A DNA stretch of 55,805 bases from an uncultured Prevotellaceae bacterium (lineage in GTDB: Bacteria > Bacteroidota > Bacteroidia > Bacteroidales > Bacteroidaceae). Of this stretch, positions 32,479-45,747 are shown one piece after another (the stretch's first letter is position 1; each line of letters starts with the position of its first letter). A program made the translations under genes and the position numbers. Below the pieces are notes generated by a model. It saw nothing but the letters and a program-made list of their open reading frames with translations, searched no databases and was not told the DNA's origin. Location of the stretch: NCBI GenBank assembly GCA_902799765.1, contig CADCBZ010000045.1:1-55805 (forward strand), read 5' to 3'.

Positions 32479-34980
32479 ATGTATAAGATAACCTGGGACA
32501 AAGAGACTGGCGGGGTGCTTTTGCACTCGCGTATAGTGGAGGGTACGCTTGGTACTTCTCCACGCCCTGTGTTCTGGGAAGAACTCGATTTGCTGAAGTT
32601 GAATGAGCTTGGGTGGAAGTATCCTCATTGCGAGGAACCTCTTCTTTGGGCAATTAACAAACAGTACTGGTATCGTGGTGAACTGGTTTTCGAAGCCAAG
32701 GGAGCCAATATCTATGACGAGGCGACGGTAGTTTTCCAGCCAGGGATGGAAGCCCTGAAGCTGAAACCTGTCAATGTGAAGAAGATGCTGGAAAACACCA
32801 AGGAATATATGTTCCTATTGGAAAGTGAAGCCATAGAGTTCATCCACGAGACCTACATTCAATATGCAGGAGCGCGTAAGAGCGTGCAGGGAGTTGCTGC
32901 CAACCAGCTCGACTACGAAGCGTTGGCTGCGAGAGCAGAGAAGAAGTCGAAGACGAAGATGGCTATTGTCAAGGAAGATTGCGACTCCTTTGAGATCGTT
33001 CCACTTGACAAAGCCGAAGAACAAGGCCGTAAGATATATCAGACCACCAAGATAGACAAGTTCCTTGCCTCCTTCTCTGGTGGTAAGGACAGCCAGGTCG
33101 TCCTTGACCTCTGCACCCGTGCCATCCCAAGTACGGACTTTGAGGTGATTTATAGCGATACCGGCTATGAATTACCGCCTTCGCTCAGTCTCTATGAAGA
33201 CGTACAGAAACACTATAAGGAGCTTTACCCCGATTTGAAGTTTTCCGTGGCCAGGAACCACGAAAGCGTCCTGAACTATTGGGATAAGATCGGTACGCCC
33301 AGCGATACCCATAGATGGTGTTGTTCAATTATGAAGACAGCACCACTGTATAGAGGATTGAAGCTGGAAGGCACCAACAAGCAGGCCAAAGTCCTTACGT
33401 TCGATGGCGTTAGAGCCGAAGAGAGCGTTAAGCGAGGAGCCTATATGCGTGTTGGTAAAGGTAAGCATACAACCATTACCAATGCGCATCCTATTATCAA
33501 CTGGAACGCAGTAGAGATATTCCTCTATCTCTTTAAGCACGACCTTCCCATCAACGAAGCCTACCGTTACGGAAAAGCCCGCGTCGGATGCCTGATTTGT
33601 CCGTTCTCCACAGCGTGGGATGATATGATAGCATCAAAGCGATATGGCTCGGAGCTTAAACCGTTTACCGAAAGGCTTGTTGCATGGTCAAAGGATAGTA
33701 AGATCGGTAAAGTCGATGAGTTTATCAAGGAAAGACGTTGGAAAATCAAAGCCATAGGAAACACCGATTTGGTAAAAACCGTCGTTTCCTTCTCCGATGC
33801 CAATAATAGCTTCACGGCAACCGTTAAGAACCCGCTTCATCCAGTTTATGAATGGTTGCCAGCGTTATGCGAATATACCGTTGAGCAAAAGGACAACGTT
33901 GATAAAGGCTCGCTAAGATTTGACGGTAACGTCTATGACTTCCATCTCAAATATGAGAAGGAGAAGAACCAATATGCCTTTGTCGTAGAGAACCCTTCAG
34001 CCCAGCTGAGCTTCCTGTTAAGGCGTGTCATCTATAAGAGTGCATATTGTGTTCATTGTGAGGTTTGCGAGGTGGACTGCCCCACTGGAGCATTATCCAT
34101 TGTCCCCAACGTCTATATTGACAAGACCAAATGCATCCATTGTCACAGGTGCCTTAACTCCCATGACTTAGGTTGCATATCAGCAGATTGCGTAAGAATG
34201 ATTAAGAATATGAATAATAACGAAGAGACAAAGATCCAAGGCTACAAGACCTTTGGTTTTAGAGAAGAGTGGCTACAGGAGTATCTTGTAGACCCCGAGT
34301 ATTTCTGGAAGAGTAATTCCCTTGGAACAGCCCAGGTGGACGGTTTCAAGGCGTGGTTGAAAGATGCTGAGATCAACGACTCCAAGAATAAGTTGACACG
34401 TTTTGGGGAGTTGCTTCAGCAGATATATGTCGATGACACTAATCTGACATGGGAGTTGATACTTACAAACCTGTCATACAACTCCTTTATCTTCAACTGG
34501 TTTGTCAACAATATCAAAATCGGTCAGGAATACGACCGTAAGATTCTGGAGGGAATGATTAATGAACAAGGTTATTCGTCGAAAGGAAAGACGGTAGCCA
34601 ATGCCGTTGCCGCACTTATCCAGACATTCGATTACTCTCCCATCGGTGATACCTTGAACATGAGCATGAATACCGACGGGAAGAATAATGTCCGTGGAGG
34701 TTATGAAGAAATAACCAAAGCCGGTTTAGCCTACAGCCTCTATAAGTATGCCGAGAAGAAAGGCGTTCATTCCCTACGGGTTTCTGACTTCTATAGTGAC
34801 GAATGTACCAGTGGTCCGTTCCGTGTTCTGGGCATTAGCAAGCAGGTGTTCAACAATACCCTGAAGGCCCTGAACTCAGCCAACAACCGAGTGCTGATTG
34901 CAGAACTGGCGATGGGTCTTGACAGTATCACCCTTCGCGAGGACTTGAACTCCATTTCTTGTTTAGAATCCCTTTTATAA
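32479..34980 (+). CDS. brxP: BrxP: PAPS-reductase-like (DndC-like) protein of type 4 BREX, with ferredoxin-type clusters
   Basis: The 833-residue protein has an N-terminal region (1-185) of its own type, a PP-loop ATP pyrophosphatase/PAPS reductase domain with SGGKDS at residues 200-205, YSDTGYELP, HRWCCSIMKTAP and GCLICPFSTAWDD (Cys residues for a cluster), then two 4Fe-4S motifs (CVHCEVCEVDCPTGAL and CIHCHRCL). The last 250 residues are helical. DndC, the related enzyme of DNA phosphorothioation, activates DNA or sulfur with the same PP-loop. In type 4 BREX this gene takes the place of the methyltransferase. The next gene starts two bases after its stop. Confidence 0.85.
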   Translation: MYKITWDKETGGVLLHSRIVEGTLGTSPRPVFWEELDLLKLNELGWKYPHCEEPLLWAINKQYWYRGELVFEAKGANIYDEATVVFQPGMEALKLKPVNVKKMLENTKEYMFLLESEAIEFIHETYIQYAGARKSVQGVAANQLDYEALAARAEKKSKTKMAIVKEDCDSFEIVPLDKAEEQGRKIYQTTKIDKFLASFSGGKDSQVVLDLCTRAIPSTDFEVIYSDTGYELPPSLSLYEDVQKHYKELYPDLKFSVARNHESVLNYWDKIGTPSDTHRWCCSIMKTAPLYRGLKLEGTNKQAKVLTFDGVRAEESVKRGAYMRVGKGKHTTITNAHPIINWNAVEIFLYLFKHDLPINEAYRYGKARVGCLICPFSTAWDDMIASKRYGSELKPFTERLVAWSKDSKIGKVDEFIKERRWKIKAIGNTDLVKTVVSFSDANNSFTATVKNPLHPVYEWLPALCEYTVEQKDNVDKGSLRFDGNVYDFHLKYEKEKNQYAFVVENPSAQLSFLLRRVIYKSAYCVHCEVCEVDCPTGALSIVPNVYIDKTKCIHCHRCLNSHDLGCISADCVRMIKNMNNNEETKIQGYKTFGFREEWLQEYLVDPEYFWKSNSLGTAQVDGFKAWLKDAEINDSKNKLTRFGELLQQIYVDDTNLTWELILTNLSYNSFIFNWFVNNIKIGQEYDRKILEGMINEQGYSSKGKTVANAVAALIQTFDYSPIGDTLNMSMNTDGKNNVRGGYEEITKAGLAYSLYKYAEKKGVHSLRVSDFYSDECTSGPFRVLGISKQVFNNTLKALNSANNRVLIAELAMGLDSITLREDLNSISCLESLL

Positions 34981-34981
34981 G

Positions 34982-35434
34982 ATGAATCTGAAGACCTCAT
35001 ATTATAAAAACAGTATTCTCTCTATCCATAGAGGACTGGCCTTTGGAGTACCCTCTAATGCCAAGCCTCTATTCCTTCTTTCGATTATCAGAGGAATCGA
35101 GGAAGGAGTGATTATTGGGAATAAGTTTACTTATGAGGAAAAGCTGGAAGCTATTTACAAGGAACTATGTTCGCTTTATGAGCCAGACAGGAAGCCAGCC
35201 CCCTTCTATAAGCCATTCTACCACTCTATCAGAGAGCATTATTATGGCATCAAATGGAAGGGAGGTAAGATTCCTGAACATACATGGCATACTCCCTCTC
35301 CTAAATTTATTAAGGAGAACATTGAATATGCTTTTCTTGACGATGGTCTTTGGGATCTTCTGCAAGACAAGTCCGTCAGGAACGAGTTTCGGGAGCTTAT
35401 CATAAGCTATTATCTTAAAACTGAAAACAACTAA
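34982..35434 (+). CDS. probable stand-alone sulfur-binding domain (SBD) protein
   Basis: The 150-residue protein has no enzyme motif. Its pattern follows the sulfur-binding domain of ScoMcrA-type phosphorothioate-dependent endonucleases: HRGLAFGVPSNAKPLFLLSI with a helix IIRGIEEGVIIGNKFTYEE, a Pro-rich KPAPFYKPFYHS, and the C-terminal pair FLDDGLWDLLQDKSVRNEF-RELI. Such domains read the phosphorothioate group on the DNA backbone. No HNH or other nuclease domain is attached. It sits directly between brxP and brxC, three bases before the latter. If right, it would be the reader for a sulfur mark made by BrxP. The assignment is by eye. Confidence 0.55.
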   Translation: MNLKTSYYKNSILSIHRGLAFGVPSNAKPLFLLSIIRGIEEGVIIGNKFTYEEKLEAIYKELCSLYEPDRKPAPFYKPFYHSIREHYYGIKWKGGKIPEHTWHTPSPKFIKENIEYAFLDDGLWDLLQDKSVRNEFRELIISYYLKTENN

Positions 35435-45229: not shown

Positions 45230-45231
45230 AT

Positions 45232-45747
45232 ATGGAATCACTATATGAGACATGGCTAAACAGGATGGATTCTTACTACGAAAGTAAGTATAAGGAACCA
45301 GTCGTTGACTTCCTTTGTCAATACGGCGGCGGCAGTGCTGACGGCAGGATGGCAAAAGGAAAGATCTTCAATGCAGGATATGAGGTGTTCATCTATGCCT
45401 TCTTCGTCGGCCTATACTATGGTGAGCGTAAGCCTCTCTCTGGTGAGAAGCTGAAGTTCCGCATGGAGATGACCACATGGGGCAGAAAAAAGAATGAGAT
45501 AGGTCGTAAGTCCTATACAATCCTGCAGAAGTACATCTTTACAGCCCTTGTTGCCAAGTCAGATGTTGATTTGATAGCTTTGGATAAAGGTGATATTGAC
45601 GTTAATGATGTCTGCGATGTGCTGATGACCACACTAAATGAGTATGCTAATTCCGGATTTTCCCTGATAAAAGACCAAATAGACAAGAAACCGGATTGTT
45701 TCTTTGAGAATACGGGATTGTTGGATTATATTAATAATTTCTGTTGA
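45232..45747 (+). CDS. 171-residue protein of unknown function, partner of the SMC-like ATPase
   Basis: The protein begins MESLYETWLNRMDSYYESKY. It contains FCGGG-like turns (CQYGGGSADGRMAKGKIF), an aromatic FIYAFFVGLYYGERKPLSG that may be buried rather than membrane-spanning, and a helical C-terminus. I recognise no family. It follows the SMC-like gene by only two bases, so the two products are likely to act together. Base composition is still like the BREX genes. Confidence 0.6.
   Translation: MESLYETWLNRMDSYYESKYKEPVVDFLCQYGGGSADGRMAKGKIFNAGYEVFIYAFFVGLYYGERKPLSGEKLKFRMEMTTWGRKKNEIGRKSYTILQKYIFTALVAKSDVDLIALDKGDIDVNDVCDVLMTTLNEYANSGFSLIKDQIDKKPDCFFENTGLLDYINNFC

Follow-up and report, generated by a model that had tools for sequence, protein, structure and literature searches.

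What marks host DNA as self in an operon for bacteriophage exclusion (BREX) that encodes no methyltransferase, and how is this mark read? The question is raised by contig CADCBZ010000045.1 (GenBank assembly GCA_902799765.1) of an uncultured Prevotellaceae bacterium, of which a stretch of 55,805 nucleotides, hereafter termed the window, was analysed. A first-pass annotation had placed brxP, brxC, pglZ and brxL of BREX type 4 (BREX-4) here, and had proposed that a sulfur in the DNA backbone is written by BrxP together with a DndD-like structural maintenance of chromosomes (SMC) ATPase and is read by a small protein with a sulfur-binding domain (SBD). The locus is confirmed, with a correction to the identity of the ATPase, and this interpretation is partly supported. 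The operon is read here as a BREX-4 operon for phosphorothioate (PT) writing, to which a stand-alone protein of the SBD fold and a PbeA-less, Pbe-like effector cassette have been added. This reading, together with the working proposed for it below, is held with a little better than even confidence.

The operon (32479–47627) consists of nine genes, all open frames on the plus strand, with intergenic gaps of −11 to +14 nt. They are arranged in the following order.

32479..34980, plus strand: brxP, with a PP-loop 3'-phosphoadenosine-5'-phosphosulfate (PAPS) reductase-like domain, two Fe-S-type cysteine clusters and a DUF4007/SspB-like C-terminus.
34982..35434, plus strand: stand-alone SBD-fold protein of 150 amino acids (aa), between brxP and brxC, assigned by SBD profile and fold.
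35438..38878, plus strand: brxC, type 4, an SspC-like AAA+ ATPase (PADLOC PDLC02490, 1806 bits; SspC models, at most 73 bits).
38868..41288, plus strand: pglZ, BREX-4 type (NF033445, 777 bits; cut-off 140).
41301..42734, plus strand: brxL, short type-4 form of 477 aa (PF13337, 391 bits; TIGR02688, 427 bits; cut-off 329.3).
42749..43027, plus strand: PbeB-like small protein of 92 aa, with profile links to the small open reading frame (ORF) between PbeA and PbeC in L062–L064.
43034..45229, plus strand: PbeC-type zinc-hook ABC ATPase of 731 aa (P0007), with Walker A at 31, CxxC at 370/373 and LIFDAPTSS at 645.
45232..45747, plus strand: PbeD-type protein of 171 aa (P0008), probably related to DNA phosphorothioation-associated protein 4 (TIGR04062).
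45744..47627, plus strand: OLD/PtuA-like ATPase with a C-terminal TOPRIM-like region (PADLOC PtuA, 103 bits; RT-Toprim, 69 bits over 403–624).

The 92-aa ORF had been left out by the first-pass annotation, and the operon extends beyond 45747 to 47627. A Pfam scan of the nine products (P0001–P0009) gives no methyltransferase family, in agreement with what had been claimed, and the scores of the core genes lie far above curated cut-offs. The operon is of BREX type 4. BrxP matches PADLOC PDLC02510 with 907 bits over residues 1–832, and is PAPS reductase-like (PF01507, 106 bits) with a DUF4007 region (PF13182) that scores 23.2 bits, below the cut-off of 27. It carries SGGKDS at 200 and cysteine clusters of the Fe-S type at 524–566 (Fer4, 25 bits). 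SGGKDS and the cysteine motif are kept in all 38 BrxP proteins of at least 740 aa. The BREX-4 forms of PglZ and BrxC are accompanied by a short BrxL without a C-terminal extension. The Walker A motifs of BrxC, BrxL and PbeC and the SDHG motif of PglZ are in place.

Other BREX-4 loci, 53 in number, were obtained from one BrxL search of genome contigs, and another BREX-4 core gene is visible in 48 of them. The closest BrxL (94%) belongs to an uncultured Prevotellaceae bacterium (L083), which points to a Bacteroidales host as probable. Among plasmids, 54 records match BrxP, but only two match over at least 80% of it, and these are two versions of a Methanosphaera plasmid. This plasmid, pNP174 of Methanosphaera sp. 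ISO3-F5, carries the same brxP, brxC, pglZ and short brxL in the same order. Its operon contains these four genes only; the SBD gene, PbeB-C-D and the OLD gene of the window are extra. One partial match to PbeC is also found among plasmids. A PglZ search of viral contigs gives no relative. A scan for promoters and terminators gives 34 versus 28.1 ± 5.1 expected and 13 versus 12.6 ± 3.6 expected, respectively, and was not used.

Host DNA is very probably marked with phosphorothioate by this operon, as judged from homology to BREX-4, which is in print as a PT writer. The key paper on phosphorothioation by BREX-4 is reportedly that of Yuan et al., in which Bacteroides salyersiae is said to have been used. 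BREX-4 is described as the PT-based BREX, in which BrxC corresponds to SspC, the PAPS reductase to SspD and DUF4007 to SspB, and BrxL is short (PMC12839542); brxPCZL is counted among the PT synthesis families (PMC11931770). The window shares these homologies with SspBCD(+E), but differs from it by the presence of PglZ and BrxL. Because published surveys describe BREX-4 in this way, the central idea of the first-pass annotation, a backbone sulfur written by BrxP, is already known for the family, and a BREX-Dnd bridge in itself has likewise been published (PMC12839542, PMC11931770). No cysteine desulfurase gene lies inside the operon. A check for one elsewhere in the genome had been suggested by the first-pass annotation, and a SufS gene is found there (586.7 bits; cut-off 475.1). 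On another contig of this genome (C66, L076), a Family 2 encapsulin shell gene adjoins a second cysteine desulfurase gene, which is related to encapsulin cargo (SufS, 468.2 bits; encapsulin-cargo, 607.7 bits; both under the cut-offs). Such a pair could possibly store sulfur, and the BREX of this genome is of the sulfur type. At E 0.001, PF01507 matches no protein of this genome (94.5% complete) other than BrxP, and no separate cysH-like gene is found.

The 150-residue protein (P0002) has an SBD fold, as had been predicted. Its sole PDB sequence match in a profile search is SBDHga1 (8h0l; E 1.2e-23), and the top seven rows retrieved with its predicted structure are SBD-containing chains; the VIA list revisits the 489 best chains of Foldseek and is not a search. 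Scans with Pfam, PADLOC and NCBIfam leave it unnamed. Cavity residues Lys28 and Pro78, which correspond to R117 and P165, are kept in all 28 rows of the 150-residue family (s150) and in all 23 other SBD rows, and the R117 and P165 mutants of ScoMcrA lost binding (PMC6224610). The proteins of L094 (99 aa) and L098 (66 aa), both shorter than 125 aa, were dropped from this table; that of L094 also reads AKP, and that of L098 is without this part. Compared by sequence and fold with the Hga SBD and the SBDs of ScoMcrA and SprMcrA, the protein of the window differs in that it stands alone and has Ala for the cavity His. Because this His is absent, the protein is named for its SBD fold and is not classed as an established sulfur reader. 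SBD-type nucleases of the architecture (wHTH)-SAD(SRA)-HNH, where wHTH is winged helix-turn-helix, have been published near BREX and BR systems (PMC12839542), and wHTH corresponds to SBD (PMC10853773). These proteins are nucleases, whereas the SBD of the window is alone and inside the operon. Among the 394 other genomes of the phylum sample, 22 encode longer SBD proteins, of which the 150-aa protein is a nuclease-free relative. Directly after brxL of L105 (2290–2955), a 221-aa protein is encoded, of which the C-terminal half matches the SBD profile weakly (E 7.5e-6).

The SBD gene recurs in BREX-4. In the survey of such loci that the first-pass annotation had called for, 41 loci show the brxP-brxC junction, which is occupied by the SBD gene in 28 of them. 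This number includes 26 loci found by script, L102 and L111 added by inspection (the BrxC ORF is called from an upstream start there), and it counts L094 despite the 99-aa length of its SBD ORF. On the BrxL tree, the distribution of the SBD gene requires seven changes. It is an accessory gene with turnover.

The cassette behind brxL also recurs. A PbeB-like gene is found behind brxL in 11 of the 53 loci, either directly (L083, L085, L086, L087, L102, L104, L108, L117, L124 and L135) or behind a helicase-only PbeA (L103). PbeC is present in ten of the 11 loci (only 97 aa in L102; cut off in L124) and PbeD in eight. L085 ends inside the cassette, and its BrxL is identical to that of L086. On the BrxL tree, the cassette falls in two separate places, and its distribution requires two changes. 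The profile of the 92-aa protein gives 43–72 bits against the small ORFs of L062–L064, of which L062 and L063 are among its seeds and L064 is not. The ATPase groups with PbeC. The CxxC hook is present in 12 of 12 PbeC proteins outside BREX and in none of three DndD controls, which are named from their position beside a DndE-like ORF, and is invariant in a 14-row alignment that includes the ATPase of the window. A profile of the BREX-locus ATPases gives 68–511 bits for PbeC and 13–20 bits for DndD. The PADLOC label PbeC alone is not trusted, because the DndD beside DndE in L172 (3328–5421) scores 429 bits on the PADLOC 'PbeC' model and 286 bits on that of DndD, the PADLOC PbeC models being mixed; the protein of the window is assigned from gene order, the zinc hook and the profile built here. 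Ten of 13 members of the PbeD family match TIGR04062 (best E 4.7e-11). PbeD has been claimed to be a cognate of DndE (PMC10853773); the hhalign probability against a profile of three DndE sequences is 0.4%, which lends no support to this identity. Searched by profile against the PDB, PbeD and PbeB give no more than weak matches (best E 0.55 and 0.03, respectively).

The order B-C-D and the zinc hook, and probably the TIGR04062-related PbeD family, are shared with PbeABCD of Haloterrigena jeotgali and the CxC-ABC ATPase systems. The published PbeB and PbeD are 66 and 152 aa long, as compared to 92 and 171 aa in the window. The window differs in that it is without PbeA and in that the partner writer is BREX-4 rather than Dnd or Ssp. 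No full PbeA is found in the 53 BREX-4 loci; in that of L103, the helicase is kept and the N-terminal nuclease part is missing. In the genome of the window (94.5% complete), no orthologue is found of PbeA, a helicase with an N-terminal PLD/HKD nuclease, the best match being one of 31 bits to the helicase part only, and the window is therefore not filed as a PbeABCD system. Outside BREX-4, 13 PbeC loci with flanks and two more at 4.7 kb were compared. G478 and G506 of the eight stronger PbeC matches were not taken with flanks (short contigs, of which L039 and L040 were checked), nor was G162, a fragment, of eight other genomes. An upstream PbeA accompanies PbeC in 13 of the 15 cassettes (cut by the contig end in L064 and L039); the exceptions are L065, which is degraded, and L040. 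A BrxP/PAPS reductase-like ORF is in view in ten of the 12 PbeA-bearing loci with flanks; that of L062 is SspD, and L172 has DndE. Deletion analyses indicate that pbeB, pbeC and pbeD are indispensable and pbeA is partly needed (PMC6459918). A PT-modified virus escapes Pbe, and no cleavage of viral DNA was seen, according to that report, but cleavage by PbeA is argued by others (PMC10853773).

These findings suggest the following working. BrxP would receive its sulfur from a housekeeping cysteine desulfurase, for example SufS. By homology, the DNA-binding part of DUF4007 and the ring of BrxC would position BrxP, which would then replace a backbone oxygen with sulfur at a short motif. The SBD-fold protein, made between two writer genes, may bind marked self DNA and couple the BREX complex there. 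The SBD-bound mark would most likely serve as a self signal that keeps PglZ/BrxL and PbeBCD off host DNA. On unmarked incoming DNA, PbeC would load with PbeB and PbeD and stall replication, as published Pbe genetics suggests. The loss of PbeA suggests that BrxL and PglZ may provide the helicase and nuclease activities for which PbeA is responsible elsewhere, and the OLD-TOPRIM-like protein may act as a backup effector.

Several observations weigh against this reading, and some of them favour other explanations. The cavity position of H116 is Ala in all 28 s150 rows, but is His in 21 of the 23 other SBD rows and in Hga. In ScoMcrA, H116 is among the most conserved residues, and H116I lowered binding by 94% (PMC6224610). 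The fixed change from His to Ala therefore means that sulfur binding may be altered or lost. The protein would then be an SBD fold that no longer reads sulfur, and serves as a structural or plain DNA-binding subunit of BREX. The invariance of W124 in s150, a position that is Trp in only three of the 23 other rows, agrees with this possibility. It is nevertheless judged to be unlikely: the cavity Lys and Pro are kept in every row, the operon is of the PT-writing type, and Ala retains the beta-carbon, the contact of H116 being made via its beta-methylene (PMC6224610). Thirteen of the 41 junctions are without the SBD gene and have gaps of −4 to 133 nt, too small to hold it, so that BREX-4 as such does not need this gene. 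Its association with the cassette (9/9 versus 19/31; Fisher p 0.037) is given little weight, because the tree leaves two independent pairs and hence no power. The stand-alone SBD may instead be a shield over PT sites against incoming PT-dependent SBD-HNH restriction enzymes, for which its kinship with the longer SBD proteins of the phylum speaks. This explanation is very doubtful, since it leaves the fixed place between writer genes unexplained.

The identity of the cassette is weighed likewise. It is present in a minority of BREX-4 loci and lacks PbeA, the defining part of Pbe; L040 has no PbeA in the 1.5 kb in view, and therefore the loss may not be special to BREX-4. P0008 alone gives 16.8 bits against TIGR04062, below the cut-off of 74.25. 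PADLOC ranks P0007 as LmuB (79 bits), then PbeC (62 bits), then DndD (48 bits). The last of these, the 29.4 bits against TIGR03185 and the location of an ABC ATPase within a PT-type operon would agree with the proposal of the first-pass annotation that the ATPase is a DndD-like subunit of the writer and a partner of BrxP. This proposal is not borne out and is highly improbable: the TIGR03185 score is far below the cut-off of 245.85, the zinc hook and the profile separate the protein from DndD, and the ATPase is present in only ten of 46 BREX-4 loci (those that show a further core gene and extend 300 bp or more past brxL) and is missing from the Methanosphaera plasmid operon. DndD was rejected as its identity. 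The rank of LmuB, the match of the neighbouring, divergent protein P0012 to LmuA (202 bits) and the variability of the slot behind brxL suggest instead a separate ABC-ATPase module, Lamassu-like or similar, which would happen to lie behind brxL within a defence island and act independently of the PT mark. However, relatives of P0012 and P0013 are the best label of no listed ORF in the 53 loci, the cassette order and TIGR04062 tie the cassette to PT systems, PAPS reductase-like ORFs accompany most PbeA-bearing loci outside BREX, and the cassette genes of the window are spaced by 2–14 nt. A separate module is accordingly considered improbable.

The slot behind brxL is variable. The OLD-TOPRIM-like gene overlaps the preceding gene by 4 nt, and a 36% relative of its product is encoded by the gene that follows brxL in L084. 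It is a probable backup effector, by analogy with the OLD-TOPRIM and other backup effectors published near BREX (PMC12839542). Behind it, a recQ-like helicase gene lies in two overlapping frames (47676–48158 and 48119–50758; frameshift or sequencing error). In L088–L092, L095–L097, L100 and L126, an ORF of 488–720 aa that resembles part of this RecQ starts 3 nt after brxL; those of L089 and L096, the two scanned, give matches to the C-terminal domain of the RNA polymerase alpha subunit and weak sigma-70 region-4-like matches. A 545-aa protein with Schlafen AlbA_2 and RecG-C-like (HATPase_c_4) domains is encoded at 50786–52423, and such proteins are also found behind BREX-4 in L083, L089 and L107. 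Upstream of the operon, the metallo-beta-lactamase (MBL)-like P0012 (30992–32086; also Avs1a, 134 bits, below cut-off) forms a divergent pair with a 1030-aa protein (27964–31056, minus strand), which matches no family and has an N-terminus that appears protease-like by eye. The two are probably another defence pair. Farther upstream, a 1479-aa protein with a VgrG/phage-baseplate OB domain (PF04717) is encoded on the minus strand (10620–15059).

Two features seem to be new: a stand-alone SBD that belongs to the operon and whose cavity carries a fixed change, and a BREX-4 Pbe cassette that lacks PbeA. Neither was met in the literature searched, which excluded Yuan et al.; the main text of PMC12839542 gives zero hits for sulfur-binding, SBD, CxC, Pbe, DndE and DndD. 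A bolder proposal, put forward tentatively and with well under even confidence, is that a reader derived from an SBD-HNH type IV nuclease lost its nuclease and became a dedicated self-recognition subunit of BREX-4, encoded between the two writer genes. In this subunit, the change from His to Ala would make sulfur binding weak or reversible, and the subunit would license a nuclease-free PbeBCD, with BrxL and PglZ borrowed as substitutes for PbeA. If this is true, BREX-4 would be the third class of PT writer served by a Pbe module, after Dnd and Ssp. The reader-fold protein lies inside the writer operon of cultured bacteria, such as Bacteroides salyersiae (L114), and the effector cassette of an isolate locus (L117) provides a natural loss of PbeA. 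The Ala in every aligned member offers a concrete handle on sulfur recognition. The findings bear on the recognition of a sparse backbone-sulfur mark as self and on the nature of the BREX-4 effector, and suggest how the writing and reading of this mark may be coupled.

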